Assembly: GCF_022614595.1 (NCBI RefSeq)
Contig: NZ_JAJFAU010000023.1
Span: 1 to 42,407 of the forward strand
Length of the DNA: 42,407 bases
Source: Streptomyces sp. CNQ085
GTDB lineage: Bacteria; Actinomycetota; Actinomycetes; Streptomycetales; Streptomycetaceae
Reading direction: 5' to 3'
This document shows positions 2,279-21,982 of this stretch, one piece after another. The notes below the pieces were generated by a model. That model ran no database searches. It saw nothing but the letters and a program-made list of their open reading frames with translations, and had not been told where the DNA came from. How positions within the stretch are numbered: position 1 is the first letter of the stretch; each line of letters opens with the position of its first letter. The position numbers and the translations under genes were made by a program.

Positions 2279-3034
2279 ATGCGCGTGCTCTTCGTCGGCG
2301 ACTCCATGACCATCGGCAGCGCCGGTGAGCACACCTGGCGCCACCGCATGTGGCGGCATCTGGAGCGCGCCCGCGGGCCCCACGGCGCCGCGTACGAGAT
2401 CGTCGGCCCGCGCGAGGCGCTGTACGACAAGGCCGTCGGCGCCCCTCTCTCCCACGACTACGCCGACCCCGCCTTCCCCGCCGCCGCCCGCCGTCATCTC
2501 GCCGGCTGGGGCGAGGGCTGGCTGCACATGGCGCCGGTGATAGCCGGCGCGGTGCGCGAGCACCGCGCCGACACCCTGCTGGTCTTCCTGGGCCTGATCG
2601 ACCTCGGCTTCTACACCGGCTCCGACGCCACCGCCGCCAGCGTCCGCCACTTCGTCGCCGAGGCACGCTCCGCCGAACCGCGGGTGCGGATGGTGCTGCT
2701 GCCGGTGATCCCCAACACGAGGGCGCGGCACGACATATTCTTCGCCGCCGAGTGCGAACGCTTCAACGAACTGCTGACCGAGGCCGTGGCCGAGCTGTCC
2801 ACCCCCGCCTCGCCCCTGCTGACGGCCACCCCGCCGCACGACTGGGACCTGGCCCACGACACCTACGACGGCACCCACCCCACCGCCCGTGGCGAGCACC
2901 GCATCGCCGCGGCCTTCGCCGACGCGATGCACCGGGCCTGGGACGTGGGCGGCCCGTACGCCGCGGGCGTGGTGGGGGCTCAGCCGGGCACGCTCCGCGC
3001 CCGCCGCCCGGCCGGGCGGGCCGCCGCGGGGTGA
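2279..3034 (+). CDS. SGNH/GDSL-family hydrolase
   Basis: A 251-residue SGNH-fold hydrolase, probably an esterase or lipase acting on an ester or acyl group. The block I motif is VGDSMTIG (nucleophile Ser9), and the Asp/His pair appears near the C-terminus in YDGTHPTARGEH. The block III position reads LGLIDLGF instead of the usual GxND, so the Asn that helps form the oxyanion hole may be absent or moved. The ATG at 2279 has GGGAGG 8 nt upstream; an ATG at 2240 is in frame but lacks a good site. There is no signal peptide, so it is probably cytoplasmic. It converges on oat with a 40-nt gap, so membership of the clavam cluster is uncertain. The C-terminal 30 residues are Ala/Arg/Gly-rich and probably disordered. 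Confidence 0.82.
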   Translation: MRVLFVGDSMTIGSAGEHTWRHRMWRHLERARGPHGAAYEIVGPREALYDKAVGAPLSHDYADPAFPAAARRHLAGWGEGWLHMAPVIAGAVREHRADTLLVFLGLIDLGFYTGSDATAASVRHFVAEARSAEPRVRMVLLPVIPNTRARHDIFFAAECERFNELLTEAVAELSTPASPLLTATPPHDWDLAHDTYDGTHPTARGEHRIAAAFADAMHRAWDVGGPYAAGVVGAQPGTLRARRPAGRAAAG

Positions 3035-3074: not shown

Positions 3075-4244
3075 TCAGGTCGTGTACTGGGAGTTCAGGC
3101 GCACGTATCCCTCGGTGAGGTCGCAGCCGTAGACGGTGAAGCGGCCTTCCCCGATGCCGAGGTCGATGCCGATCACGACCTCCTCGCTGCCCTTCAGGTA
3201 GGCGGCCACCGACTCGCGGCGCCGGTCCTCGTCCGGCCCGGGCGGGTAGACGCCGATGTCACCGAACCGCACGGTGACATGCTCCGGGGCGATGTCCAGG
3301 TCCTCCTGGCACTTCCCGATGGCCATCACGACCCGTCCCCAGTTCGGGTCGGCTCCGTGGACGGCCGTCTTGACCAGCGGGGAGTTGACCACCGTCTTCC
3401 CGACGCGCTTGGCCTGCGCCGTGTCGCGGGCGCCCTGCACCTCGACCTGGATCAGGGTGGAGGCCCCTTCGCCGTCGGAGGCGATCATCTTCACCAGTCC
3501 CAGTGCGACCGTGTGGAGAGCCTGTTCGAAGGCCTCGGGATCGACCGGACCGGCGAGCCCGTTCGCGAAGAGGGCGGCGGAGTCGGAGGTGGAGGTGTCG
3601 GTGTCGATGGACACGGCGTTGAACGTGGTGTCCATGACCCGCTTGAAGACCGCCTTCAGTGTCTCCCCGTCCAGCTCGGCGTCGGTGACGAAGAAGGTCA
3701 GCAGGGTCGCCATGTCGGGCTCCAGCATGCCGACGCCCTTGGCGATGCCGGTCAGGGTCGCGTCGCCGATCCGTGCGGTCAGGCACTTCGGGTGGGTGTC
3801 CGTGGTCATGATCGCCCGCGCGGCCGCCTCCATGTCCCGCGATCCGGTCGGCGGCGGCCACGTGAGCCCGTCCAGGTGACCGACGATCCGCTCCATGGGG
3901 TACTGGCGCCCGATGACCCCGGTGGAGGCGATCAGCAGTTCGTCGGGGGCGATCCCGAGGGCGCGTGCGGTGGTGTCCCGCACCACGGCGGCGTTCCGCG
4001 CCCCCTGCGCGCCCGTGGCGACATTGGCGTTGCGGGCGATGACGACCACACCGCGCGCCACGCCGTCCTCCACCGCGGCACGCGAGAGGGCCACGGACGG
4101 ACCGGCGAACCTGGACCGGGTGAAGACCGCCGCGGTGCGGGCCGGGACGTGCGAGGCGATGACGCACAGGTCGTCACGCCCGTCGTCGTCGATTCCGACG
4201 GGAGCGGTGTGGATGTTGAATCCGCGGGGTACGGCGCCGTGCAT
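3075..4244 (-). CDS. oat: Ornithine acetyltransferase of clavam type (OAT2-like)
   Basis: A 389-residue member of the ArgJ family of N-terminal-nucleophile enzymes, which move an acetyl group between N-acetylornithine and glutamate. It self-cleaves before the Thr of EPDMATLLTFF (Thr180 here). The oxyanion STGVIG motif is at residues 107-112. The C-terminus (DLTEGYVRLNSQYTT) and long internal blocks match the remembered OAT2 of the S. clavuligerus clavulanic acid cluster closely. Its role there is thought to be arginine supply for CEAS, or acetylation chemistry. The ATG at 4244 starts MHGAVPRGFN after AGGCGGA; upstream residues are composition noise. A 204-nt gap separates it from oppA1, so it may have its own promoter as well as read-through. 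Confidence 0.93.
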   Translation of the reverse strand: MHGAVPRGFNIHTAPVGIDDDGRDDLCVIASHVPARTAAVFTRSRFAGPSVALSRAAVEDGVARGVVVIARNANVATGAQGARNAAVVRDTTARALGIAPDELLIASTGVIGRQYPMERIVGHLDGLTWPPPTGSRDMEAAARAIMTTDTHPKCLTARIGDATLTGIAKGVGMLEPDMATLLTFFVTDAELDGETLKAVFKRVMDTTFNAVSIDTDTSTSDSAALFANGLAGPVDPEAFEQALHTVALGLVKMIASDGEGASTLIQVEVQGARDTAQAKRVGKTVVNSPLVKTAVHGADPNWGRVVMAIGKCQEDLDIAPEHVTVRFGDIGVYPPGPDEDRRRESVAAYLKGSEEVVIGIDLGIGEGRFTVYGCDLTEGYVRLNSQYTT

Positions 4245-4448
4245 GGCGAGATCCGCCTTTCGATATCGGTTCGGGCACCCGAGTGGTGTGCGACGACGGG
4301 GCGGGCAGGAGGCCCGCGGCCCGTCGTCCCATGCCCTTGGTACCAGACGACGCGTGCGTCGCACTCCCGGAAACGTGCGCCGTGTGGCAGGTATGCGCCC
4401 CTCCCCGCCGCGCCGGGGGCGGCCCCGACGGGCGCGCCCTCCCGCCCG

Positions 4449-6074
4449 CTACACGGAGCCCTCGTCCACGACCGACAGCACCGCGTAGTCGTACATCCCG
4501 TATGCCGGGGACATCCTGACGTTCGCGGCCCTCCGCCCCCGGAACACGACCGATTTGACGTACATGTAGGGGCACATGACGGCCTCGTCCATGGCGGCAC
4601 GGTCCACGGCGGCCCAGATCCGGGCCCGCTCCTTGTCGTCGCGCGTCGCCGCGCCGGCGTCGAGGAGCGCGTCGATCCGCGGTGAGGCGAGCTCTCCGAG
4701 GTTCTGGTTCCCCCTCTCCTTGATCGCCCGCGAGTCGGCGATCTGCTGGAGGAAGCCGTAGCCGTCGGGGAAGTCGGCGGCCCAGCCGAACATCACGATC
4801 CCGATCCCGTGTTCCCGCACGTACTCGGGGACGCCGACCGCCTTGGTGAAGTAGTCACCGGAGGAGAACGGGATCACCTCGGCACGGATGCCGGCGCGCG
4901 CCAGCCCGCGTGACAGGGCGAGCGCGGCGTTCCACTCCTTGGTGCGGTCCTCACGGGCGGCGATCCTGGTGGTGAAGCCGTCCGGGAGGCCGGCACGTGC
5001 CAGCTCGCGCCGGGCCGCCTCCAGGTCCCCCGTGCCGTCGGGGCCGACCGGGTAGCGGTCGAAGGGGTCGTACCCCACCACGGAGGCGGGCAGGAGGGTG
5101 GTGGCGATCTCCCCCGCGGCGTCGCCCCCGTAGGCGGCGAGCATCGCCGCCTTGTCAGTGGCGTACTGCACGGCGCGCCGGGCGTGCACGTTCTTCAGCG
5201 GGCCGATGTTCTGGTTGAGGCAGTAGAGCCAGACGAAGCCCGTCCGCGGATTGTCCACCCGCTGCCGCAGCTCCGGATCGGACAGGATCAGCGCCTGGGT
5301 CTCGGGCTGCACTCCGACGCCGGCGAGGTCGATGTCCGCCTCTCCGTCGAGCAGGACGCGGTCGACCTCCGGGCCGCTCATGCCGAGCCGGACCGTGATC
5401 CGGTCCGGCAGGCCCGTCCGTACGGGATCGGTCGCGGCCTCCCAGTGCGGGTTGCGGTGGAGCGTGAGCCGGGCGCCAGGTGTGTAGGTGTCGATGCGGT
5501 ACGGGCCCGAGGACACCGGGTGGCGGTGGTACTCGGGGAAGCTGTCGCGCTCACGCGGCACCGCTATCGTGGTGGGCAGCGCGGCGAGGTAGTCGAAGGC
5601 CGCGAAGGGCTCGCGCAGCCTGAAGACGATGGTGCGGTCGTCCGGGCACTCCATCCCCCCGGGACCGGTGAGGTACTGGCGGAAGTACGCGGGGCCCCCG
5701 CGCGTGGCCGGCGCGCCGTAGACCTCCTCGGGGTAGGCGGCCCGCAGCACCGCGTACCTCACGTCCTCCGACGTGACGGGCGTGCCGTCCTCGAACCGGA
5801 TCCCCTCCCGCAGCCGGTAGGTCCAGGTGCGTGAGTCCTCGGACGCCTCGCCGAGTGCCTCCGCCAGGTCCGGCACGAGGCGCGGGCCGCCCTCCGCGTC
5901 GGTCGTGTAGCCGACGAGCGGACGCCCGATGAGCCGGATGAAGTTCCAGGTGTACGCGTAGTACGTGTCGGCGGGATCGAGCGAGTCGAAGTCGTCGGTG
6001 CGGACGTATCTGAGCGTCCCGCCCCGGTGGTCGGACGGGTTCACGGTGTCGTGGGCTTTCGCGTTCGGTGCCAC
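4449..6074 (-). CDS. oppA1: Oligopeptide-binding protein, OppA1-like, no signal peptide
   Basis: A 541-residue family-5 extracellular solute-binding protein (DppA/OppA fold), resembling the two Opp-type proteins needed for clavulanic acid formation in S. clavuligerus. The family pattern is clear: GGTLRYV near the start, the DSLDPADTYY block, LREGIRFEDGTPVTSEDV, SSGPYRI, and the GPLKNVHARRAVQYATDK block. It is named oppA1 because it lies next to oat, as in known clusters. It starts at a GTG (6074) with a poor ribosome site. An in-frame stop at 6132-6134 (the upstream gene's own stop) limits any extension, so no Sec, Tat or lipobox leader can be present. A cytosolic peptide- or intermediate-binding role is therefore possible. 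No Opp permease or ATPase genes accompany it. Confidence 0.9.
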   Translation of the reverse strand: MAPNAKAHDTVNPSDHRGGTLRYVRTDDFDSLDPADTYYAYTWNFIRLIGRPLVGYTTDAEGGPRLVPDLAEALGEASEDSRTWTYRLREGIRFEDGTPVTSEDVRYAVLRAAYPEEVYGAPATRGGPAYFRQYLTGPGGMECPDDRTIVFRLREPFAAFDYLAALPTTIAVPRERDSFPEYHRHPVSSGPYRIDTYTPGARLTLHRNPHWEAATDPVRTGLPDRITVRLGMSGPEVDRVLLDGEADIDLAGVGVQPETQALILSDPELRQRVDNPRTGFVWLYCLNQNIGPLKNVHARRAVQYATDKAAMLAAYGGDAAGEIATTLLPASVVGYDPFDRYPVGPDGTGDLEAARRELARAGLPDGFTTRIAAREDRTKEWNAALALSRGLARAGIRAEVIPFSSGDYFTKAVGVPEYVREHGIGIVMFGWAADFPDGYGFLQQIADSRAIKERGNQNLGELASPRIDALLDAGAATRDDKERARIWAAVDRAAMDEAVMCPYMYVKSVVFRGRRAANVRMSPAYGMYDYAVLSVVDEGSV

Positions 6075-6131
6075 GGGGGTCCCAGCGCCTCTCTCGTCGT
6101 ACGGGTGGTGTGGAAGGCTCGTGCGCCCGGC

Positions 6132-7154
6132 CTAGCTCTCCCCGTCCGCGTCCGGCGGCCGGCGGATGCTCAGTTCCCACATGCTCCGCGTGCCGGCGTG
6201 GGCGAACCCGAAACCGGCGTTGATGCGGAGCATGTGCGCGTTGTCCGACGCGTTCCAGGTGTCCACCTGGGCCAGCCGGGGCTCGGCGGCCCTGCACACG
6301 GCCAGGTTGTGCGCCTTGACCAGCAGTCCCAGGCCCCGTCCCCGGTAGGCGGGGTCGACCACGGTGACGGCCTGGAGTGCGTTGTCCGGGTTGCTCCGCG
6401 TCATGGACAACGCGGTCCAGGCGGCCATCTGCCCCGTACGGGTGTCGATGATGCCGCACTGGTAGGCGCGTCGGCCGCGGGCGATGCGCATCCGCTCGAA
6501 GTCACGGATACGGCTCACCGCGCTCGGCTGGGGTTCCCAGCCGAGCTGTCCGGTGGGGGCGTCGGAGGAGAGTGTGGCCTCCAGCCGGGCGGCCTGCACC
6601 ACCAGGTCATCGGGAACCGTCGATCCCCAGAAGCGGAGACTCAGGGGTTCGGGGAGCGGGGCGGGGGCGGGTGCGGCGTCGACATGGAGCCGCAGATGCT
6701 GGAAGGAGGCGAGGTGCCGGGCTCCCAGGCCGGTGGCGAAGCGGTGCCCGGGGGTCGCCGCGGGGTCGCCCGGCCCGGCGTCCCCGACCAGCAGGATGCG
6801 CGAGCGGCCGTGAGCGGTGGCGCGCTCCCGGACGAGCTCCGCGACCCGTGCCCCCACGCCCTGTCCGCGGAAGGCGGGATGGACGAGGAGGACGCTCGCG
6901 GTGACGGTTCCGGAGTTCTCCTCCAGCGGGAACTCCAGGCGCAGGGACGCGACGCAGTGCCCGTCCGCGTCGTAGGCCGCCCACTCCTCGATCCCGGTGG
7001 CCGGGGGGGCGACGGAGAGGGAGCCCTCCAGGTCGGCCGGGCAGGGAGGAGGCAGATGGGGGAGGTCGGCGGCGTGTCCGGCCAGGCGCAGGCCGTGCAC
7101 GTCACCGACCGCGCGGCGGTCGGCGGGGTCGACGGCTGTGAGGGATATCTTCAT
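6132..7154 (-). CDS. Tandem GNAT acetyltransferase (ORF14-like)
   Basis: A 340-residue protein with two GNAT folds. The first (about residues 1-170) carries the acetyl-CoA loop HPAFRGQGVGARV, the second (about 180-335) carries DPAYRGRGLGLLVK. This arrangement, next to oppA2, matches ORF14 of the clavulanic acid cluster. ORF14 is known as a tandem GNAT that binds acetyl-CoA in its N-terminal half but has no settled substrate. The ATG at 7154 overlaps the oppA2 stop as ATGA, so it is translationally coupled to oppA2. It may acetylate or otherwise acylate a clavam amino group or a pathway amino acid (inference). Confidence 0.9.
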   Translation of the reverse strand: MKISLTAVDPADRRAVGDVHGLRLAGHAADLPHLPPPCPADLEGSLSVAPPATGIEEWAAYDADGHCVASLRLEFPLEENSGTVTASVLLVHPAFRGQGVGARVAELVRERATAHGRSRILLVGDAGPGDPAATPGHRFATGLGARHLASFQHLRLHVDAAPAPAPLPEPLSLRFWGSTVPDDLVVQAARLEATLSSDAPTGQLGWEPQPSAVSRIRDFERMRIARGRRAYQCGIIDTRTGQMAAWTALSMTRSNPDNALQAVTVVDPAYRGRGLGLLVKAHNLAVCRAAEPRLAQVDTWNASDNAHMLRINAGFGFAHAGTRSMWELSIRRPPDADGES

Positions 7155-8778
7155 CGGGCCACTCCCATTGCCTGGACGTCGTACAGACCGAACGCGGGAT
7201 GCACGTAGGCATCGGTGACGTCGGGGTGCCGGTAGTGCAGTGTGCGGTCGTGGGCCATCGGGAGGATGACGGCCCGCTCCATGACCGTCTCCTCGACGCG
7301 TTGCCAGAGCCGGCTCCGGGCGACGGGGTCGGCGAGGGCCTGGGCCTCGTCGATGAGGCGCCGGACGAGCGGGTCGTCGAGTTCGGCGAAGTTGAAGTTG
7401 CCGCCGCCGTGCTTGATCTGGCGTCCGTCCACCAGGGGGGCCAGGAAGCCGTACTCGGTGGGGTAGTCGGCTCCCCAGTCGGTGACGCCGAGGCCGAGAC
7501 CGAGAGCACGCACGGTCTCGGGGTGGCCCAGGCCGGAGCGGTAGTACGAGGCGGTGTCCAGGACTTCGACGTGGGCGCGGATGCCCACCCGGGCGACGGC
7601 GTCGGCGAGGGTCCGGGCGACGAGCTCGAACTTGCCCGGCTGGGTGGCGATCCTGGTCTCGAAGCCGTCGGGAAGTCCCGCGGCGGCCAGTTCGGCGCGG
7701 GCGGCGGCCAGGTCGCCGGTGGAGTCCGCACCGCAGGGGTAGCGGTCGTGGCCGGTGTGGGAGGGCAGGGTGGGGGGGATCAGGCTGGTGGCGAGCGACC
7801 CGCCCACCCCGTCCCCGCCGCGTGCCTCCAGGAGTGCGGCCTTGTCGGCGGCGTAGAACACGGCGCGTCTGGCGTGGACGTCGCCGAAGGGGGGCACGCA
7901 CGTCTGCACGGTGATGTACTGGAGGAAGCCGGTGGCGGGGTTGTCGGCCCGGGCCCGCAGCACGGGGTCGGCGAGGATCATGTCGCGTGCGGCGTGCTGG
8001 ATGCCGCGGCCCTCGACGTCGATGTGGAACTCGCCGGCGATGAGGCGGCGGTCCATCTCGTCGACGTCCACTCCGAAGGTGACGGTCATGTCGTCCGGCA
8101 GTGCGGGGCGGACGGGGTCGGTGGCGCGGTCCCACACCGGGTTGCGTACGAGGTGGAGGAAGTCTCCGGCGCGGTAGTGGCCGATGCGGTACGGCCCGGA
8201 GCACACCGGCGCCTTCTCGTAGTCTTCCCGGGTGTCGTGACGGGCCGCCACCGGTGCCGTGTTGGGCTGCGCCATCACGTAGTCGAAGTCGGCGAACGGC
8301 CGCTTGAGGCGGAAGCGGAGAGTGCGGTCGTCCGGGACCTCGACGGCCCGGCAGCGCTGCCCGTCGTAGGGGCCCCGGTAGCCGCCGTGGTCGAGCAGGT
8401 CGAGGAGGTAGGTGGGGCCGCCGGGGAGGGTGTCCTGCGCGAAGACCCGCTCCACGGCGTGGGCGATGTCACGGGCGCGGACGAGCTCACCGGTCTCGAA
8501 CCGGACGCCGTCGCGTATCCGGTACGTCCACGTCAGACCGGCGTCCGACACCTCGCCCGGGCCGGTCGCCAGGTCCGGTACGACCCCGGGGGTGACCGGA
8601 TCGGTGCCGAAGGCCATGAGGGTGCGGTGCATGGTCCGCTGCAGCAGCCAGGACCACACGTAGTAGGTGCGGGCGGGATCGAGCGAGTCGACGTCGGCCG
8701 AGGCCACCATGGCCAGCCGGCCTCCGGGCTTGCCTCCGGGGTTCGCCACGGCCCTGACGGCGCCGTTCCAGCCGGACA

Positions 8779-8779
<1 letters not shown>
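7151..8779 (-). CDS. oppA2: Oligopeptide-binding protein, OppA2-like, no signal peptide
   Basis: A 542-residue family-5 solute-binding protein, paralogous to the oppA1-like gene in this cluster. Shared blocks are DSLDPARTYYVWSW, IRDGVRFETGELV, CSGPYRIG and FGDVHARRAVFYAADK. Called oppA2 from its place between the orf14-like and orf16-like genes. The ATG at 8779 has a perfect GAAGGAG site lying inside the end of the preceding gene and shares one base with that gene's stop (TGATG). The N-terminus (MSGWNGAVRAVANPGGKPGG) has no hydrophobic stretch and no lipobox Cys. Like its partner it seems to lack an export signal, which is odd for the family. Confidence 0.9.
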
Positions 8780-11719
<2,940 letters not shown>

Positions 11720-11720
11720 C

Positions 11721-13250
11721 ATGACCCAGACCGACCTTCCCGCAGCCTTCGGTTTTCTGGCCTCCGCCCACACCGGCGGAGGCCCGATCCCCACGGCGGT
11801 GTTCGCCACGCGCGGCCGGCACACCCGGTTGTCCGAGCGGTTGCGCGCGCAGACCGTGGACGCCGTTCTGGTCCATCCCGACGCCGGTCCGCGCGGGGCG
11901 CACGCTTCCGACGGGGACATCCTGGTGCTGTTCGCCGGGGAGATCTACAACCGTGACGAGATCGACGGGACTCTGAGCTCCTCCTCGAACGCCTCGGAGG
12001 TCTCGGACGCCGAGCTGGTCTCCGCCCTGTTCGAGAAGTACGGTCCCCACGCGTTCCGGATGATCAACGGCCGGTACGCCGCGCTGCTCGTCGCGGGCAC
12101 CCGCGTGCTGGCGGCCACGGACCACGCGGGATCGGTCCCGCTGTACGTACGCCCCGAACCGGGGCACGTGCTGGCCGCCACCGAGGTGAAGGTGCTGGCT
12201 TCGGCCGGTGCGGCGGTCCGCGGTGCCCCGGTCCCGGGGGCGCGCCGCATCCGGGGGCTTCCGGGGCTCCACCAGGTTCCCGCCGGGGCGGTGTTCGACA
12301 TCCGTGCGGACACCGGTGAGGTGACGGTGCACCGGACCTGGACACCCCCGGTGCACCGGCTCCTGGCCGAGGAGGGCGAGGCCGTCAACAGTGTCCGCGC
12401 GGCGCTGGAGAAGGCCGTGGTCCGGCGCCTCCGCGGCGGCAGGCCGCTGGTGGTCCTGTCGGGAGGAATCGATTCCTCCGCCGTGGCCGCGCTGTCCGCC
12501 GGCGCGGCCACGGCGGGGATCGACACCCTGTCGATGGGGACGGACGTCTCGGACGAGTTCCCCCAGGCCCGGGTGGTCGCGGAGCATCTGGGCTCACGGC
12601 ACCGGGAGATCACCGTCGGCTCCGGGGACCTGCTGGCCCTGCTTCCGCACACCGTTCACGCCGCCGAGTCCCTGGACCCGGAGGTCATCGAGTACCTTCT
12701 GCCGCTGACCGCGCTGTACCGCCGGATCCACGGATCACCGCGGAGAGTGCTCACCGGGTACGGAGCCGACATCCCTCTGGGCGGCATGCACCGGGAGGAC
12801 CGGCTGCCGGACCTGGACACCGCGGTGGCGGTCGACATGGACACCTTCGACGGGCTCAACGAGATGAGCCCGGTGCTGTCGGCGACGGCCGGCCACTGGT
12901 CCACCCATCCTTACTGGGACCGCGAGGTACTGGAGTTGCTGACCGTGCTGGAGGCCGGTCTGAAACGCAGGTACGGGCGGGACAAGTGGGTGCTGCGCAC
13001 CGCCATGTCCGACCTGTTGCCCGCCGAGACCGTCAACCGTCCCAAGCTCGGTGTGCACGAGGGCTCCGGGACGACCACGTCCTTCTCCCTGCTGGTCCGC
13101 CGGGCGGGCGCGGCTGAGGACGAGGTCGCGGCCGTCAAGGCGCGGGTCGTCCAGCGGTTGTTCGACCTGACCGTGGTGGGCCGTGTGCACCCGGACGATG
13201 TCGAGGTCGAGCAGATCATCGGGAAGATTCTGGCCGAGGGCGGACGATGA
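11721..13250 (+). CDS. bls: Beta-lactam synthetase
   Basis: A 509-residue homologue of asparagine synthetase class B that adenylates N2-carboxyethylarginine and closes the beta-lactam ring, giving deoxyguanidinoproclavaminate. The N-terminal glutaminase-like domain has no catalytic Cys2, as expected for BLS. The PP-loop SGGIDSS is at 247-253. The residues that distinguish BLS from asparagine synthetase are present with a shift of one: Tyr347 (TGYGADIP), Glu381 (NEMSPVLS) and Lys442 (RPKLGVHEGSG), matching Tyr348, Glu382 and Lys443 of the S. clavuligerus enzyme. It starts one base after ceaS and its stop overlaps the next gene as ATGA. Catalytically intact by inspection. Confidence 0.97.
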   Translation: MTQTDLPAAFGFLASAHTGGGPIPTAVFATRGRHTRLSERLRAQTVDAVLVHPDAGPRGAHASDGDILVLFAGEIYNRDEIDGTLSSSSNASEVSDAELVSALFEKYGPHAFRMINGRYAALLVAGTRVLAATDHAGSVPLYVRPEPGHVLAATEVKVLASAGAAVRGAPVPGARRIRGLPGLHQVPAGAVFDIRADTGEVTVHRTWTPPVHRLLAEEGEAVNSVRAALEKAVVRRLRGGRPLVVLSGGIDSSAVAALSAGAATAGIDTLSMGTDVSDEFPQARVVAEHLGSRHREITVGSGDLLALLPHTVHAAESLDPEVIEYLLPLTALYRRIHGSPRRVLTGYGADIPLGGMHREDRLPDLDTAVAVDMDTFDGLNEMSPVLSATAGHWSTHPYWDREVLELLTVLEAGLKRRYGRDKWVLRTAMSDLLPAETVNRPKLGVHEGSGTTTSFSLLVRRAGAAEDEVAAVKARVVQRLFDLTVVGRVHPDDVEVEQIIGKILAEGGR

Positions 13251-14526
13251 CCACATACGAGCGGTTCCGGGGCAAGCGGCTCGCCGTCGTCGAGTCGATG
13301 CTGCACGACGCCTTCTACTCCGGCATCCACCGCGCACGGGACTTCGGCTGCGAGGTGTGGCTGCTGGTACAGGGAGAGGAGTGGTACACCGGGGGCACGC
13401 GGCCGTTGGCCGAGCATCCGCTGGGCCGGGTCGACCGCGTGCTGCACGTCGACACGCACGACTGGCGTGCCGTGACCGATGCCCTCACCGACGAGGAGGG
13501 CAAGCCCCTGGTGGACGGGGTGCTGTCGTTCTCCGACTACCACACGGAGGTGACCGCCCGCGCGGCCGAGGCCCTGGGGCTGCCCTCCCAGGGGCTGGAG
13601 GCGGTGCGCGCGGCCAACCACAAGCACCTGCTGCGGGCCGCACTGGACGGGGACCCGGCCAATGTGCGGTGGCGGCTGGTGACCCGCGCCGGGGAACTGG
13701 ACGAGGCGATGGCCCATGTCGGGTTGCCCCTGATCGCGAAACCCCCCTCCGAGGCCATCTCCTACGGGGTCCGCAAGTGCGCGACCCGCGAGGAGGCGGT
13801 CGAGGCGTGGCGGGAGCTGTCGGGCATCCGGCAGTCCCTGCGGGGGCAGCCGCGCCCCGGGCACGTGCTCCTGGAGGAGTACGTGCGGGGCACCGAGATC
13901 AGTGTCGAGTCGATGACCGTGGGCGGAGTCACCCACTTCTTCGGCGCCACGTCCAAGTACCTGCACGGACGGACCATGCTGGAGGAGGCCCACTCCTTTC
14001 CGCTCGCCCTCGAAACCGGTGTCTGGGACGGGATCCGGTCCTGCGTGGACCGGGCCCTGCGGGCGATCTCCTACCGGCAGGGCCCGGCCCACACCGAAGT
14101 GATGATCACCGAGGACGGGCCGCGCGTCATCGAGGTGAACCCGCGTCTGCCGGCCCACATGATCTCCACGATGGTCACCGACGTCTGCGGGACCAACCCC
14201 CACCTGGACGCGAAGCTGCTCGCCCTCGGTCTGGAGTGCGTGCCCAAGGGCGCTCCCGGCCGGGGTGTGGCGGGGGGCGCCGCCGTGGTGGTGCTCTTTC
14301 CCGACGAGAGCGGCGAGTTCACCCGTATCGACGGCCTGGACGAGGCCGAACGGCTCGGTGCTTCGGTCCGCCTCCACCACGAGCCGGGCGATCTGGTCGC
14401 CGAGAGGCTGGACAACTCGGCCTCCGTGGGCTTCGTCTACGCGCACGGCCGCACCGCCGAGGACGCACTGGCCAGGGCCCGGCACGCGGCAGGACGCATC
14501 CGCATCCACACCCGGAGGGCTGCACC

Positions 14527-14530
<4 letters not shown>
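13247..14530 (+). CDS. ATP-grasp carboxylate-amine ligase inserted between bls and pah
   Basis: A 427-residue ATP-grasp protein of the carbamoyl-phosphate-synthase/L-amino-acid-ligase type. A pre-ATP-grasp domain (about 1-110) is followed by the ATP-binding lysine region LPLIAKPPSEAISYGVRK (about 163-180), EEYVRGTEISVES, and the metal-binding IEVNPRLPAHMI (about 292-303). Such enzymes form an amide bond via an acyl phosphate. It starts by ATGA overlap with bls and ends by GTGA overlap with pah, so it is locked into the core operon. The classic clavulanic acid order I know is ceaS-bls-pah-cas with nothing between bls and pah. The known cluster does contain an ATP-grasp N-glycyl-clavaminate synthetase (orf17/gcaS), but elsewhere. 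Likely role: aminoacylation of clavaminic acid or of an intermediate (inference). Substrate unknown. Confidence 0.85.
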
Positions 14531-16462
<1,932 letters not shown>

Positions 16463-16634
16463 GTCCGCCGTGAGGACGTCCCGTCCGCTGCGGGCCGGGC
16501 CTGCGGCGGACGGGACCACCGGCATCGCCCCGGTTCGCGTCGCGGCGAAACACCACCGCACGCGGCCGGAAGCCTGTGATTCTCGGATCTCCCGTCCTGA
16601 AGGGACGCCAAGGGGCCGAGCGGAGGGGCGGGGG

Positions 16635-16669
16635 GCATGACGCACCGGGCACCGCCCGGTGCGTCATGC
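16635..16669. terminator. Perfect 16-bp bidirectional terminator hairpin
   Basis: Arms 16635-16650 and 16654-16669 are perfect complements around a 3-nt loop (ACC). It lies between the convergent ends of cas (+) and the SARP gene (-), so it can stop both. There is no U-run on either side. The right arm runs directly into a 17-bp tandem repeat. The remaining 16463-16634 shows no gene. Confidence 0.8.
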
Positions 16670-16732
16670 CCTCACGACCGCCATGCCCTCACGACCGCCA
16701 TGCCCTCACGACCGCCATGCCCTCACGACCGG
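16665..16732. repeat. Four tandem copies of a 17-bp repeat
   Basis: The unit CATGCCCTCACGACCGC occurs four times head to tail; only the last base of the fourth copy differs. The first five bases belong to the right arm of the terminator hairpin. The unit is not palindromic and has no spacers, so it is not a CRISPR. It looks like recent replication slippage and could vary in number between strains. Confidence 0.9.
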
Positions 16733-16773
16733 CTCCGGGGCCGTGAACGGACGGCCGGGGAACGGGAACCCGC

Positions 16774-17619
16774 TCAGGAACGGGGTGCGGACAACGCCGT
16801 GTGCGGGGGCGGCTGGTTCGTCGCCGGCCGGGGTGCCAGCCTGCTGTCCTGGCGGAGGATCGCCTGGGCCAGGGTGCGCAGTCCGGGCCCCGGGTCGATG
16901 CCGAGCTCCTCGGCGAGGGCCTGCCGCACGTCGTGGAAGACCTTCAGGGCGTCCGCCTGACGGCCCGAGCGGTAGAGCGCGAGCATGAGATCGGCGTGGA
17001 GACTCTCCCGCATGGGGTAGTGGTCGACGAGTTCGAGCAGGTCGGGGATGACCTCCTCGTGCCGCCCGAGCTGTAGTTCGAGGGAAGCCCGGTACTGCAG
17101 CGCGACGGCGTGTTCCTCCTCGAGCCGGGCGGCCCAGCCACGCAGACCCCGATGTGTGATGTCCACGAGGGCGGGGCCGCGCCACAGCTCGTGGGCCGAT
17201 CGCACGAGCCGCACCGCCTCGTCGAGCCGGCCTCGTCGCTGCATGGCGCGGGCGTCCGCGATCTTCGTGCGGTAACTCGTCACGTCGACCGAACACAGCT
17301 CACTGTTCAGCCGGTATCCGGTGGCACACGACTGAACCGCCTCCGCCGGGCCTCCGGCGTTGACGAGGGCCGTCCGGAGCATCCAGATGCCGGTCTGCAC
17401 CTGGCCCATCGCGGTTCGGGGAGGCTTGTCGTACCAAACGGCTTCGATCAGGTGGTCGGTGGCGACGATGCGCCCCGGCTGAAGCGCCAGAGTGGCTAAG
17501 ATCCCCCGCTGACGGTGGCCCGGCACGGTCACGGGTTTCGGACCGACTCCGACCTCGAGCGGGCCCAACACAGCGATGCGGACGGGTCGAGATGTGTCAT
17601 CTCTGTCATCTGTGAACAT
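16774..17619 (-). CDS. SARP-family pathway activator with a TTA codon
   Basis: A 281-residue Streptomyces antibiotic regulatory protein. An OmpR-type winged-helix domain (about residues 15-100, with VRIAVLGPLEVGVG and QVQTGIWMLRTAL) is followed by a bacterial transcriptional activation domain (about 105-265, with DHYPMRESLHADLMLALYRSGRQADALKVFHDVR and ELGIDPGP). SARPs bind direct heptamer repeats near -35 boxes and recruit RNA polymerase. The ATG at 17619 is preceded by AAGGA at 7 nt; a GTG at 17634 adds five residues. CcaR, the SARP controlling clavulanic acid, lies in the neighbouring cephamycin cluster in S. clavuligerus; here a SARP sits inside the clavam cluster. No claR-like LysR gene is seen. 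It converges on cas. Confidence 0.9.
   Translation of the reverse strand: MFTDDRDDTSRPVRIAVLGPLEVGVGPKPVTVPGHRQRGILATLALQPGRIVATDHLIEAVWYDKPPRTAMGQVQTGIWMLRTALVNAGGPAEAVQSCATGYRLNSELCSVDVTSYRTKIADARAMQRRGRLDEAVRLVRSAHELWRGPALVDITHRGLRGWAARLEEEHAVALQYRASLELQLGRHEEVIPDLLELVDHYPMRESLHADLMLALYRSGRQADALKVFHDVRQALAEELGIDPGPGLRTLAQAILRQDSRLAPRPATNQPPPHTALSAPRS
17497..17499 (-). promoter_or_regulatory. In-frame TTA codon in the SARP gene (bldA-dependence)
   Basis: The Leu of RGILATLALQ is coded TTA, in frame with the SARP start. In Streptomyces the only tRNA for UUA is the bldA product, so translation of this activator should be delayed until differentiation. I saw no TTA codon in the other cluster genes by eye. 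ccaR is also a TTA-containing SARP gene. Confidence 0.85.
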
Positions 17620-18310
17620 CCTGGGATCCTTCACGTGGTGACGCGCGTCGACTTTTGGTCGGACTGTGCGTCAGAAGTAGACGGAAGGCGTAAGGGTTGT
17701 GTCAATGGAGGCCTCAGCCTGCGGGTTGATTGGCTGGTTTCACTCAGAACTTCACGTTCGCCCCCGCGGCACCGGATGGCGGACACCGCTCACACAGGAG
17801 CGGACGCCCGGCACGGGACGCGGCGTTCGCCGGCCGGCGTCGCGGAGCCGGCGGGCGACCGCGCGGAGCGACACGCATGGAGCGCGGATACGGTTCGCGT
17901 CCGGAAACGGCCACGGAAGACACCCCGAGTCCCCCACCGCGGGCCGCGCGCCGGCGCCGGACGGACCGCGGCAGCCCTCTCTCCCCGAGGACGGCCGGAG
18001 CGAAGGCCAGTACTTTTTCGGACATTCGACGGCCCGAGTCGCAACCAAAGGTGCGCTTCCCGCGCACCACCCCGGCACATACACCGCACCCCACGCCGAT
18101 TCCTGTTCGAACCCCGGGCTTCGAATCGGGTCGCGAGCGCGTCTCTTCGCCCGTGGACCAGCGAGAAAACCGGGCCGCGTGGATGTATTTCATGTTTTAT
18201 GAGGAGGTGGTGTGTCTCTCTCACCCTGCGACGCGTATGACCGGAAACCACAGCCTCCCACCGCACTCTGTGTACCTTCTCGGTTTCAGGTTGTCATCAA
18301 GGGAGGGTGT
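17620..18310. promoter_or_regulatory. 690-bp divergent intergenic region (SARP and MBL promoters)
   Basis: This holds the upstream regions of the leftward SARP and the rightward metallo-beta-lactamase-fold gene. No frame has coding-like composition. An AT-rich patch at 18181-18200 followed by GAGGAGGTG (18201-18209) looks like a promoter end plus a strong ribosome site. It could serve a longer form of the MBL gene (GTG 18212) or a 13-codon frame at 18199. The rest shows nothing I can name. Confidence 0.5.
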
Positions 18311-19330
18311 GTGCAGCGGCGACGGCGGATGCTCCTCGGGAGCGCGGTGGCGATCGGCTCGTCGGGGCTGATGGGGCGAAGCGAGCCGAAACACGTCGGC
18401 GCCCGCGCCCGGCGCCCCTCCCTGGAGGGGCTGTTCCTCCAGTGGCTCGGGGTGGCCGGCTGGGAACTCGGTTTCGGGGACATCAGGTTGCTCTTCGACC
18501 CCTACCTGAGCCGTATGCCCTTCCAGGCGTCCGACGGGTCCCTCGACCCGTCGCTCCCCCTGCGGCGGGACCCGAGGACCGTCGCGGCCGTGGCGGATCG
18601 TAACCTATCGGGTCCTCCGGCCCTGATCCTGGTCAGCCACGGACACTTCGACCACCTGGCGGACGTGCCGCAGCTGCTGGCCCACCGGGGGTGGGACGGG
18701 CACCGGATCCGCACCCTGTGTGACGAGACGTCCCACCACCTGCTCGCCGCCATGGGCACCCCGGACCGCAGGCTGGCCGATGTGATCCGGGTCCGGGGCG
18801 GGGAGTACCTGAGGTTTCCAGGCTTCACCGTCGAGGTGCTGCGCAGTCTGCACAGCCAGTCCGGCGACCACGGCTACTTCGCGCCCGGAACGCACACCGG
18901 CCCGCCCCGGACACCGCGGACGATCGGGGATCTGGTCGAGGGCCTGACCCTGGCCTACGTGGTGTCCTTCGACGACGGGCCGTCGGTCTACCTCTCCGGC
19001 ACCAGCAACCTCGCCGAACGGGAACTCACCGGCCTGCGACCGGACGTCGCCATCGTGGGCATGACCTCGCACAGCGCCGTCCACCGGTACCTGGACCGGC
19101 TGCAGAACGCGCTGGGCGAACCGGCGGTACTGTTGCCGAGCCACCACGACGACATGGTCTCCCCGCTCCTCGGGGCGGGCGCCGCGCAGCGGACGGGTGA
19201 AAGCACCGGCCGTTCGGCGGCCGCCGTCACACTGGAGAACGCGGCAGCGGCGCGCGGGGCGCGGGGGACGAGGGTCGTCGACCCCGCCCCGCTGCGTCCC
19301 TTCGACCTGGCCGCCCCGGCCGGGGGCTGA
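18311..19330 (+). CDS. Tat-exported metallo-beta-lactamase-fold hydrolase
   Basis: A 339-residue protein starting at GTG 18311 after GGGAGGG. The N-terminus (VQRRRRMLLGSAVAIGSSG) is a twin-arginine-like export signal. The MBL zinc motif HGHFDH is clear (His110, His112, Asp114, His115), with further candidate ligands His181 (LHSQSGDHG) and His278/His279 (PSHHDD). The usual bridging Asp (as in xGDT) is missing; the strand reads YLSGTSNLAEREL. So it is a UlaG-like variant that may bind one metal or use other ligands. Placed in a beta-lactam cluster and exported, it could hydrolyse a clavam or process its side chain outside the cell, or protect the producer (inference). The longer start at 18212 would add 33 residues ahead of the arginines. 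Confidence 0.8.
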   Translation: MQRRRRMLLGSAVAIGSSGLMGRSEPKHVGARARRPSLEGLFLQWLGVAGWELGFGDIRLLFDPYLSRMPFQASDGSLDPSLPLRRDPRTVAAVADRNLSGPPALILVSHGHFDHLADVPQLLAHRGWDGHRIRTLCDETSHHLLAAMGTPDRRLADVIRVRGGEYLRFPGFTVEVLRSLHSQSGDHGYFAPGTHTGPPRTPRTIGDLVEGLTLAYVVSFDDGPSVYLSGTSNLAERELTGLRPDVAIVGMTSHSAVHRYLDRLQNALGEPAVLLPSHHDDMVSPLLGAGAAQRTGESTGRSAAAVTLENAAAARGARGTRVVDPAPLRPFDLAAPAGG

Positions 19331-19334
19331 CGGA

Positions 19335-19352
19335 CGGGCCGCGCCCGGCCCG
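19335..19352 (+). terminator. Short GC hairpin just after the MBL gene
   Basis: A 7-bp perfect stem (19335-19341 with 19346-19352) and 4-nt loop begin four bases after the stop. The rest of the 370-bp gap to the MFS gene shows no gene. It holds two direct copies of a 14-bp sequence, TCGCTTCGCCGGGC (19437-19450 and 19512-19525, 75 bp apart), and presumably the MFS promoter. Confidence 0.45.
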
Positions 19353-19700
19353 CTGTGACCGGCGGGCCCCGCGAGGAGCCGGCGGATTCACCCGCCCCCG
19401 CCGGGCACACCACCGGATTGGTCCCCTCCCCTTCCGTCGCTTCGCCGGGCGACAGTGCCCCGGACACGGAGGTGCTCGCGGGCAGGCTCTTGCCGAACTC
19501 TCCGTCGGCTCTCGCTTCGCCGGGCTCACGGCGCCGCACGACACTCGCTCCAGGGCGATGACCTGCGTGAACGCTGGGAACAGCTCAGCGCACCGCCTCG
19601 CGGGAACGTTGCGGGGCAGGCGCGGGACGCATAACTTCTGCACGTCCCGACGCCTCCCCCTCCGCGGTGCCCGACCCCCACACGACTTCACGGCGGTGCC

Positions 19701-21005
19701 ATGCAGTTCAGCAAGTTCCGCAGCGGTGTGCCCCGAACGGCCCGGCCGCCCGGGCGGTTCCCGGGTCTCCGTCAGCTGCTGTTCGCACACTCGCTGAGCC
19801 AGGCCGGATTCGTGGTGCTGAACCTCGCGATGCCACTGCTCGCGGCGACCAGCCTGCGGGCCACGCCCTTTCAGGTGAGTCTGGTGTCCGCCTCGCAGAC
19901 GGTCGCCTTCCTCCTGATCGGACTGCCCGTCGGCGTCTGGGTCGACCGGATGCGCAAGCGTCCGACCATGATCGTGGCCGACCTCGTCCGGGCCGCGGTG
20001 CTCACCGCGGTGCCCGTCCTGTGGATGCTGGACGCGCTCACCGTCACCCATGTGTGCGCGGTCGCGTTCGTGGTGGGCCTCGCCACCGTCTTCTTCGATG
20101 TCGCGGATCAGAGCTACCTTCCCCATCTGGTCGGCTCCAAGGGGCTGGTGACGGCCAACTCGCGCCTGGTCGTCGTGGACCAGACGGCCGCGGTGGCCGG
20201 GCCCGGCGTCGCGGGCCTGATCGTGCAGGCCATCACGGCGCCGCTGGCCGTGGTGGTGTCGGCGTTCGCCTATGTGGGCTCGGCCCTCTGCGTGGCACGC
20301 ATCGAGGACCGGCGGCCCGAGGCGGTCGACCGCGGGCCGCGTGAGCCCCTCGGCCGCTCGGTCCTGCGGGGCGTCCGGTATCTGTGGGACCACCCGGTAC
20401 TCCGCTGGCTGGTGGCGTGTTCCACGACCATGACGTTCTGCTGGAGCATGGGCTACGGCATGCTCCTGGTCCTGCTGGCCCAGGACCTGGGAGTGTCCGC
20501 CGTCACCATCGGGCTCCTGTTCACGGCAGGGGGCGTGGGGGGCCTGTGCGCGACCATGCTGGTGCGGCCCATCGTCGAACGGCTCGGCGACGGACGTGCC
20601 GTCGTCCTGAGCGTGACCCTGACCGCCCCGTGCACCCTGCTGGCGGGGCTGGCGGAGTCCGGGGCACGGCTCGCGTTCGTGGTGTGCGCGCAGTTCGCCT
20701 TCGCGGCGGGGCTGGTCGTCTACAACGTCGCACAGGTGAGTTACCGCCAGCGAACGGTGCCCACGAACCTGCTGGGCCGGGTGAACGCGACGGTTCGCTT
20801 CTTCGCCTGGGGGGCACGCCCGCTGGGCATGCTCCTGGGAGGTGTCCTCGCGGAGTTCCACGGCGCCCGGTCCGCCGTCTGGGCGGGAGCCGTCGGGACG
20901 GCCCTCGCCTCCCTCTGGCTCCTCTGCTCCCCGCTGCGCGGCATGCGCGTGCTCGCGCGGCCCTCGTCCGACTCCGACTCCTCCGTCACCAAGGAAGTCC
21001 TGTGA
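19701..21005 (+). CDS. MFS exporter of the clavam cluster
   Basis: A 434-residue major facilitator of the MFS_3/enterobactin-exporter-like type, with about 12 membrane segments. The N-half has GLPVGVWVDRMRKRP (the loop 2-3 signature), and the C-half has QRTVPTNLLGRVNATVRFFAWGARPLGMLLGG, typical of MFS_3. It is followed by an ATP-grasp gene overlapping by GTGA, which suggests that exporter and ligase act on the same compound: conjugate, then export. It could secrete the clavam product and confer self-protection (inference). The start at 19701 has only a weak ribosome site. Confidence 0.88.
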   Translation: MQFSKFRSGVPRTARPPGRFPGLRQLLFAHSLSQAGFVVLNLAMPLLAATSLRATPFQVSLVSASQTVAFLLIGLPVGVWVDRMRKRPTMIVADLVRAAVLTAVPVLWMLDALTVTHVCAVAFVVGLATVFFDVADQSYLPHLVGSKGLVTANSRLVVVDQTAAVAGPGVAGLIVQAITAPLAVVVSAFAYVGSALCVARIEDRRPEAVDRGPREPLGRSVLRGVRYLWDHPVLRWLVACSTTMTFCWSMGYGMLLVLLAQDLGVSAVTIGLLFTAGGVGGLCATMLVRPIVERLGDGRAVVLSVTLTAPCTLLAGLAESGARLAFVVCAQFAFAAGLVVYNVAQVSYRQRTVPTNLLGRVNATVRFFAWGARPLGMLLGGVLAEFHGARSAVWAGAVGTALASLWLLCSPLRGMRVLARPSSDSDSSVTKEVL

Positions 21006-21982
21006 ACGACAACCTCGCCGAACCCTCCGTGCCGCCGAAGCTGGTGTGGATCACCACCCCCGACAACTACGACCCGCACCTGCAGGAGCGGCTGCGGCGC
21101 AAGGGCTCCGAGCGCGTCGACACGCTGCGCGCGGCGGGCTTCGACGTGCGCATCGCCCACTCCTGCGACATCGTCCCGGTCTGGAACGGCTCCCCGCGCC
21201 TGCTGTGGGAGAAGGAGGACCTGCTCGCCGAGTACGCGGGGTTCCTGGTCACCTCCTGGTCCTGGGATCCGGCCATCATCCGGCACATCGAGGCCATCAC
21301 ACGGACCATCAGGGCCTCCGACTGCGTCCTCCTCACCGACGGGACCCGGGATCCCGAAGTCCTCGGCCTCGACAAGCTGGCGATGTACCACCACGCGGCC
21401 GCGCAGGGCGTCCCCGTGCCGCCCACCGTCTCGGTTCCCTTCGGACGCTACGCCCGGCGTGCTCTGGAGGCCGTGCGCACGGAGCTGCCGGCCGGGCCGT
21501 ACGTGGTGAAGCCGCGCTCCATGGCCATGGGTTTCGGAGTGCTCAAGGCCGACACCTCCCAGCACCTCTCCTCCACGATCGACCTGCTGACGCCCGGCGG
21601 GCTGGGCTGCCTGATCCAGCCCCACGTGCCCAACGACGGCGACGTGCGGGTCTACGTGCACGAGGGCAAGGTGATCGCCGCACTGCTGCGCGAGCCGGCC
21701 GGGAAGTCGTACCTGGCCAACGTGAGCCGGGGCGGAAGCGGTTCCGGCTACGAGCCACCGGCCGACGTGGTCGAGTCGAGTGAGCGGCTGGCCCGGAGTC
21801 TGGAATCGGACTACCTGTGCGTGGACTGGCTGCTCACCGGGGACGGCCACGTGTTCAACGAGTGGATGACCGTCTCGGCCGCCTACGAGGACCTGCCCGA
21901 ACCGGACCGGCGGCGTGTCGCGGACGCCCTGGTTCAGTACATACGCGGTCGTCTCGACGAGGGGGCGCGCCGTCCGCTGTGA
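21002..21982 (+). CDS. RimK-like ATP-grasp ligase coupled to the exporter
   Basis: A 326-residue ATP-grasp protein of RimK/GshB type, unlike the one at 13247. Seen in order: an N-terminal domain with WITTPDNYDPH; the ATP lysine in YVVKPRSMAMGFGV; QPHVPNDGDVRVYVHEGKVIAALLR; and the RimK-like LANVSRGGSGSGYEPP loop. The metal-binding block, usually ExN near the end of the fold, reads HVFNEWMTVS, so Asn and Glu seem to have changed order. GTG at 21002 overlaps the MFS stop and has AAGGA upstream. RimK-type enzymes ligate amino acids to free carboxylates. Candidate for N-acylation or aminoacylation of clavaminic acid, analogous to the N-glycyl-clavaminate synthetase of S. clavuligerus. Substrate unknown. 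Confidence 0.82.
   Translation: MNDNLAEPSVPPKLVWITTPDNYDPHLQERLRRKGSERVDTLRAAGFDVRIAHSCDIVPVWNGSPRLLWEKEDLLAEYAGFLVTSWSWDPAIIRHIEAITRTIRASDCVLLTDGTRDPEVLGLDKLAMYHHAAAQGVPVPPTVSVPFGRYARRALEAVRTELPAGPYVVKPRSMAMGFGVLKADTSQHLSSTIDLLTPGGLGCLIQPHVPNDGDVRVYVHEGKVIAALLREPAGKSYLANVSRGGSGSGYEPPADVVESSERLARSLESDYLCVDWLLTGDGHVFNEWMTVSAAYEDLPEPDRRRVADALVQYIRGRLDEGARRPL

Follow-up and report, generated by a model that had tools for sequence, protein, structure and literature searches.

The contig analysed here, 42,407 nucleotides from Streptomyces sp. CNQ085, carries a clavam biosynthetic gene cluster between positions 3,075 and 21,982. The whole 42,407-nucleotide stretch, called the window below, is an entire contig (C136) of a 4.9 Mb assembly that comprises 225 contigs and is 94.6% complete, and its left edge lies about 3 kb past oat, the leftmost gene of the cluster. 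Genes were assigned from gene calls and from Pfam, NCBIfam and PDB sequence searches, with Pfam applied to 40 window open reading frames (ORFs). The reference was the clavulanic acid cluster of the producer S. jumonjinensis (L021 and L070), whose genes were named here from Pfam and from the gene order given in PMC6856088; its SARP regulator was called CcaR from position alone. When 16 window genes were compared with this cluster by blastp, 12 had a match, and no counterpart was found for the major facilitator superfamily (MFS) exporter, the RimK-like ligase, an SGNH gene and an aldo-keto reductase. The cluster ORFs are free of internal stops, and 4-nt overlaps join bls to the gcaS-like gene, the gcaS-like gene to pah, and the MFS gene to the RimK-like gene.

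Early and late clavulanic acid genes

The enzymes that lead to clavaminic acid are encoded on the forward strand. Carboxyethylarginine synthase (ceaS, 9998..11719) aligns with PDB 1upa over 573 of 573 residues (1041.7 bits) and is 81% identical to its S. jumonjinensis counterpart; beta-lactam synthetase (bls, 11721..13250) matches PDB 1jgt (E 2.2e-180; 61% to S. jumonjinensis); proclavaminate amidinohydrolase (pah, 14527..15483) belongs to the arginase family (PF00491, E 8.1e-86; 77% to S. jumonjinensis Pah2); and clavaminate synthase (cas, 15485..16462) scores 560 bits against the NCBIfam equivalog ClavSyn_CS1 (cut-off 450), matches PDB 1drt (E 4.7e-157) and is 74% identical to the S. jumonjinensis protein. 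Inspection of the sequences located the expected catalytic residues: His144, Glu146 and His279 in Cas, Tyr347 and Lys442 in Bls (Tyr348 and Lys443 of 1jgt), Glu57, His120 and Gln121 in CeaS, and GGDHS, HLDAHSD and SVDIDVFDP in Pah. Homology and residue inspection thus agree with the sequence-only reading, an earlier annotation of this DNA, which had all four clavaminic acid enzymes encoded with their catalytic residues intact, and the early gene set of a clavulanic acid cluster is complete. CeaS, Bls, Cas and Pah, followed by Cas a second time, would yield clavaminic acid. In six other clavam loci (L037, L039/L081, L040, L041, L042 and L044/L085), those of Phycicoccus and Actinocrispum included, Pah and Cas are apparently fused in a single frame of 651-671 aa; the window genes are separate.

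The late genes claR, cad, cyp, orf12 and orf13 had no match in the window, where alone claR and orf13 were sought. Among the 40 Pfam-scanned ORFs there was no penicillin-binding protein and no ferredoxin domain, small ORFs being left out of the scan and no search having been aimed at ferredoxin. Isopenicillin N synthase was not found in the window genome, where the same search recovered it at 83-100% in three positive-control genomes; the adjacent cephamycin cluster of clavulanic acid producers is accordingly missing, on a contig that ends 3 kb to the left. In these respects the sequence-only reading was borne out: it had reported no clavulanate dehydrogenase (Cad), P450, orf12-like gene or claR in the window and no cephamycin or penicillin-binding-protein genes flanking the cluster, and had concluded that the pathway does not proceed to clavulanic acid.

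The cluster might nonetheless lead to clavulanic acid, or to a different 5R clavam, if diverged or unlinked late enzymes were encoded elsewhere, and both the state of the assembly (94.6% complete, 225 contigs) and the contig edge near oat leave room for such genes. As the sequence-only reading had proposed, orf12, cad and cyp were sought across the whole genome, which does hold other P450s, the best 42% identical to S. jumonjinensis Cyp (a value without a paralogue baseline), and other short-chain dehydrogenases/reductases (SDRs), the best 45% identical to Cad. Yet orf12 had no match anywhere in the genome. Across 11 whole genomes, it was recovered with E of at most 4.7e-83 in five, with an in-frame TGA inside two of the five matches; G004 gave a 97-residue match at 1e-9, and there was none in the window genome, G003, G005, G008 and G009. 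Cad is 56-100% identical in the same five genomes with a strong orf12 match, where it is the cluster gene, whereas the other five genomes without one lie, like the window genome, within 40-45%. As the SDR paralogues of S. jumonjinensis itself reach 43%, the window-genome matches are at paralogue level. Late genes are not found near the cluster in five further genomes of the same type either, and a 5R product from unlinked enzymes appears quite unlikely.

A cluster type in six genomes

An alignment scan with Cas across named genomes returned 42 loci, and gene content was compared in 13 clusters. Six of these, from the window, A3M-1-3, WZ.A104, S. wedmorensis, G285 and a Micromonosporaceae metagenome-assembled genome (MAG), carry the MFS and RimK-like genes and are without claR, orf12 and orf13; they are referred to as window-type, and in their flanks S. 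wedmorensis has a match to the cad family at 31% and WZ.A104 one to the P450 at 32%. Another six, from S. jumonjinensis, M41, S. papulosa, Kibdelosporangium, Phycicoccus and G221, possess cad, cyp, orf12 and orf13 with no linked MFS or RimK-like gene (clavulanic acid-type), and the Actinocrispum cluster has gcaS but neither gene set. All six window-type clusters have eleven genes in common: ceaS, bls, gcaS-like, pah, cas, oppA1, oppA2, orf14, orf16, MFS and RimK-like. The gene for a protein of the metallo-beta-lactamase (MBL) fold is absent from three, oat from two and the SARP gene from one, that of the MAG, whose contig stops just past the RimK-like gene. The MFS and RimK-like genes, which the sequence-only reading had listed as additions and which indeed have no counterpart in the S. 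jumonjinensis cluster, therefore mark a cluster type common to six genomes. In the 24 of the 42 Cas loci that represent other cluster types, flanks of up to 10 kb in no case had the oppA, MFS and RimK-like genes or a gcaS match above 34%, and an orf16 homologue was present in two (L032 and L040).

Two of the compared clusters differ in further ways. G285 (L108, L109), a genome of the same genus in a single 5.3 Mb contig, has a more divergent window-type cluster that includes two MFS genes and encodes a PcbR-like protein (60%). Actinocrispum wychmicini (L044, L084, L085, L147, L148) combines a clavulanic acid-type gcaS (76%) with both oppA genes in a third arrangement, near which cad, orf12, MFS and RimK-like genes had no match.

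A cluster with this gene content could also be a decayed clavulanic acid cluster that yields nothing beyond clavaminic acid or monocyclic precursors, which would inhibit beta-lactamases. There is a precedent in S. pratensis-type non-producers, whose beta-lactamase inhibition is ascribed to predicted monocyclic precursors in PMC12482188. The ORFs of the window cluster are, however, uninterrupted, and the same architecture is found in six genomes that span two families. Moreover, in a tree of the four-gene core (30 rows) the window-type cores of the five Streptomyces genomes separate from the rest with support of 99.9/100, and in a GcaS tree (18 rows) the five Streptomyces window-type proteins form one clade (100/100) and the clavulanic acid-type proteins, with that of Actinocrispum, another (93/91). 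These are separate lineages and not clavulanic acid-type clusters minus their late genes; the separate core lineage argues against recent late-gene loss in the Streptomyces window type, and decay is a highly improbable explanation.

Peptide-stage genes, predicted exporter and flanks

The gcaS-like gene (13247..14530, forward strand) encodes a predicted ATP-grasp aminoacyl-clavaminate ligase with an LAL_C2 domain (PF18603) that is 49% identical to S. jumonjinensis GcaS. The S. clavuligerus protein P0210 is 91% identical to S. jumonjinensis GcaS and 50% to the window protein, and the homology is full-length (49-50% over 421 columns) with the LAL_C2 architecture retained. It had been claimed that two ATP-grasp ligases stand in for clavulanic acid genes, which does not hold for the first of them: the 13247-14530 ligase replaces nothing, since at this identity it is a homologue of gcaS (orf17), itself a core clavulanic acid gene. 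The gene lies within the bls-pah-cas operon; Kibdelosporangium, Phycicoccus, Actinocrispum and the Micromonosporaceae MAG have the same gene order. Because the clavulanic acid-type motif that follows ExNPR is lacking in the window protein (EVNPRLPAHMISTMV versus EANPRTPSSCMTMLV), the ligase is designated GcaS-like.

This difference extends beyond the window. Sixteen positions are fixed differently between six window-type and seven clavulanic acid-type GcaS sequences, and seven of them fall within 23 residues after ExNPR. Among 79 database homologues, 35 have at least 11 clavulanic acid-type residues, 33 of these, including S. clavuligerus, with TPSSCMT after ExNPR or ExNTR; 17 have at least 14 window-type residues, and 27 are intermediate or other. 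Four homologues, none of clavulanic acid type and one of them from the window, apparently share a genome with a RimK-like protein, as judged from the longest contigs. The GcaS of clavulanic acid clusters uses glycine. We infer that the motif after ExNPR sets the choice of amino acid, and as the motif differs, an amino acid other than glycine is likely for the GcaS-like ligase. Streptomyces sp. NPDC046197 has two GcaS homologues (P0186 and P0198), one of clavulanic acid type and one with another motif, the latter apparently in the same assembly as a RimK-like protein by the same comparison of longest contigs. A plasmid search with the GcaS-like protein gave 299 records, none reaching 60% identity, with 29-33% among the eight rows listed.

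Orf16 (8779..9846, reverse strand) is 42% identical to S. jumonjinensis Orf16 and matches the Pfam family FemAB_like (PF04339), as do all nine Orf16 proteins scanned. Its predicted model, with a predicted local distance difference test (pLDDT) score of 93.8, has a double-GNAT fold whose nearest PDB neighbours are Sba18/Sbb17 and FemX, and in this fold it resembles the Fem-type natural-product transferases VlmA, PacB, DhpH-C and Sba18; identity to Sba18/Sbb17 is only 13-14%. Lys337, near the C-terminus, is invariant in 16 of 16 sequences and is a candidate counterpart of Lys305 of FemXWv, a lysine described as catalytic in PMC12945691. On the strength of the model, Orf16 is predicted to be a Fem-type aminoacyl-tRNA-dependent transferase. 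A literature search, which did not extend to most subscription papers, found neither Orf16 described as aminoacyl-tRNA-dependent nor aminoacyl-tRNA, clavulanic acid and orf16 mentioned jointly. Orf16 is not known to have an assigned role in the clavulanic acid pathway; the prediction gives this protein a concrete function that can be assayed. In the Micromonosporaceae MAG (L083, 7001-9121), the Orf16 and Orf14 homologues are fused in one 707-aa frame.

The predicted MFS exporter (19701..21005, forward strand; PF07690, E 5.8e-42), found in all six window-type clusters, overlaps by 4 nt the gene for the predicted RimK-like ATP-grasp carboxylate-amine ligase (21002..21982, forward strand). The RimK-like proteins form a discrete family of at least 32 members, the window protein included, at 40% identity or more, beyond which matches fall to E 7e-8. 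The predicted model (pLDDT 87.1) has the RimK/LysX ATP-grasp fold, its nearest structures being RimK, LysX and DcsG, and in the best rows identity to RimK, LysX-ArgX and DcsG is 17-20%. Where RimK has the metal motif E-x-N, the family has E-W-x-T, with E287, W288 and T290 invariant in 31 sequences. Apparent internal stops in the RimK-like genes of G258, G002 and G408 were dismissed, the TGA being the natural end.

The RimK-like gene is present in nine of 392 genomes of the genus, that of the window among them. Three others have it at 60-62%, all with a Cas of 74-78%, and five at 40-44%; at the latter level it was discarded as a clavam marker, as all five such genomes are without a Cas match above 34%. 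Of 38 Cas-bearing genomes (L029 left out) seven carry the gene: four in linked window-type clusters, together with M41, SM10 and S. clavifer, in which it is unlinked to the clavam locus and adjoins an MFS and an orf16-like gene. The SM10 clavam contig is only 18 kb, and in that genome the separation holds on this scale. A fourth genome with such an unlinked group, G221, was found through the ligase itself, and all four genomes (G221, L112/L113; S. clavifer, L110/L111; M41, L145; SM10, L146) have clavulanic acid-like clusters. Their four unlinked Orf16 proteins form one clade (100/100), closest to the Orf16 of the MAG (82/83). Among eleven Streptomyces-type genomes with clavulanic acid-type or S. 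pratensis-type clusters (L010-L017, L021, L022 and L024), the RimK-like gene occurs in three and is missing from eight, including S. jumonjinensis; the search of Cas-bearing genomes did not find it in Kibdelosporangium or Phycicoccus.

The remaining genes of this stage lie on the reverse strand: oat (3075..4244), an Oat2-like ornithine acetyltransferase of the ArgJ family (PF01960, E 1.1e-123; 69% to S. jumonjinensis Oat2); oppA1 (4449..6074), for an oligopeptide-binding protein of solute-binding family 5 (PF00496; 59% to OppA1); orf14 (6132..7154), for a tandem GNAT acetyltransferase (PDB 2wpw, ORF14, E 2.9e-45; 35% to Orf14); and oppA2 (7151..8779), for a second protein of solute-binding family 5 (62% to OppA2), which matches PDB 2wok, titled clavulanic acid biosynthesis oligopeptide binding protein 2 (E 4.2e-216). 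All of these and orf16 match S. jumonjinensis genes, in keeping with the earlier claim that they are common to clavulanic acid clusters, and the peptide-stage set of gcaS (as its GcaS-like homologue), orf14, orf16, oppA1 and oppA2 is complete. By eye, the N-termini of OppA1 and OppA2 show no obvious signal peptide, which suggests a role inside the cell.

Two genes that had been regarded as peculiar to the window cluster proved otherwise. The CcaR-like SARP gene (16774..17634, reverse strand; BTAD domain, E 3e-43; start codon uncertain) is 42% identical over 188 aa to the S. jumonjinensis SARP taken as CcaR, and the MBL-fold protein (18329..19330, forward strand), with the HxHxDH motif as HGHFDH, is 63% identical to the product of L021:989-1867, which is beside the S. 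jumonjinensis SARP gene and is possibly orf11. Tandem 17-bp repeats in the register CGCCATGCCCTCACGAC lie between cas and the SARP gene (16645-16729); a search for regulator sites through repeats and alignment found no clear operator. To the left of oat, an SGNH/GDSL hydrolase (1313-3034) has the domain type reported for nocE of clavulanic acid-like clusters, and was rejected as the cluster's nocE, being unmatched in the 42 Cas loci and the flanks of relatives, a comparison made without a genuine nocE sequence. An aldo-keto reductase (22113-23099) was likewise rejected as a member: it is unmatched beside the A3M-1-3 and WZ.A104 clusters and the S. wedmorensis contig shows a family member at 28% identity some 3 kb outside the cluster.

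Predicted product and place among clavam pathways

The window cluster shares ceaS, bls, pah, cas, oat, oppA1, oppA2, orf14, orf16 and gcaS homologues with the clavulanic acid clusters of S. clavuligerus and S. jumonjinensis, and differs in the position of gcaS inside the bls-pah-cas operon, in the added MFS and RimK-like genes, in the absence of claR, cad, cyp, orf12 and orf13 from the cluster, and in the lack of isopenicillin N synthase from the genome. The clavulanic acid-like clusters of non-producers (S. pratensis, M41 and S. viridis types) have the same early and peptide-stage genes, but those of M41 and S. papulosa, unlike the window, carry cad, cyp, orf12 and orf13; PMC6856088 lists the M41 and S. 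pratensis types among non-producers and describes such non-producer clusters as unaccompanied by cephamycin clusters. With the 5S clavam clusters (alanylclavam, valclavam, clavamycins) the window cluster would share derivation from clavaminic acid and a presumed 5S configuration. Some members of the 5S clavam family are peptidyl clavams. A literature search, which left most subscription papers and the supplementary figures of PMC12482188 aside, found no clavam cluster of this type described; that paper places many clavulanic acid-like cluster variants in those figures, and the window type may already be pictured there.

Judged by its gene content, with early and peptide-stage genes and three enzymes predicted to form amides but without the late genes sought, the cluster probably directs the synthesis of an N-acylated peptidyl (3S,5S)-clavaminic acid for export by the MFS protein, the 3S,5S configuration following from the presumed pathway. 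Once a CcaR-like SARP had switched the cluster on, as seems likely, the GcaS-like ligase would couple an amino acid onto the amine of clavaminic acid, Orf16 would add a residue from an aminoacyl-tRNA, and acetylation of the N-terminus would fall to Orf14. Another amide may come from the RimK-like ligase, acting either on the carboxylate of the clavam or on the peptide. OppA1 and OppA2 would serve as intracellular binding proteins for the peptidyl clavam. Amide formation on clavaminic acid, as first proposed, thus remains the best-supported fate; the accompanying view of two replacement ligases gives way, one being a homologue of the core gene gcaS, so that only the MFS and RimK-like genes are added.

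A simpler outcome would be plain N-glycyl- or N-acetylglycyl-clavaminic acid, with the RimK-like protein and Orf16 adding nothing to the scaffold. The gcaS-like, orf14 and oppA genes are compatible with this, as is a RimK-like family without the ExN motif, and both compounds, which count as intermediates or shunt products in S. clavuligerus, are known from mutants of that species (PMC6478378 and PMC7830376), accumulating in those of orf15 (oppA2) and orf16 (PMC6478378). Yet the GcaS motif after ExNPR is unlike that of all six clavulanic acid-type clusters compared and of S. clavuligerus, and every window-type cluster retains both orf16 and the RimK-like gene, which makes such a product unlikely.

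Several observations weigh against an N-acylated peptidyl clavam. Clavulanic acid-type genomes also carry orf16 and gcaS, whose presence by itself is therefore no sign of a peptidyl product. Since glycyl-clavaminates accumulate in the orf15 and orf16 mutants of S. clavuligerus, Orf16 and OppA2 act after GcaS in that species, and they might remove or rearrange groups and not add them. As the RimK-like family has E-W-x-T without exception where RimK has E-x-N, its catalysis is not certain. Lineage drift may account for the fixed differences in GcaS. Finally, the MAG core does not group with the Streptomyces window-type cores (weak support), its GcaS lies outside both GcaS clades in an unresolved position, and the window-type Orf16 proteins are not one group in their tree.

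A broader proposal, which is tentative and which we regard as doubtful in its entirety, would have a hybrid peptide assembly line, composed of a non-glycine GcaS-type ligase, a Fem-type Orf16 and the RimK-like ligase, give rise to an exported peptidyl clavam; clavulanic acid would have arisen from it by the addition of P450, ferredoxin, Orf12 and Cad, which would make its peptide stage an inherited peptidyl-clavam module. In some silent clavulanic acid-like strains (M41, S. clavifer and SM10) the unlinked MFS-RimK-Orf16 genes would then serve to finish a peptidyl clavam.

The conversion of clavaminic acid to clavaldehyde is presented as unresolved in PMC7830376. For clavulanic acid, a major drug, it remains to be explained how and why its (3S,5S) precursor clavaminic acid is carried through N-glycyl and N-acetylglycyl derivatives before the (3R,5R) form is reached. 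The window cluster separates the peptide stage from the oxidation and inversion stage, so that the role of the gcaS-like, orf14, orf16 and oppA genes, in peptidyl-clavam formation or in inversion, becomes testable. If the proposed reading is correct, the peptide stage of clavulanic acid biosynthesis, of which little is understood, would be a separate, portable unit, and the cluster would point to beta-lactam natural products of a group not yet explored.

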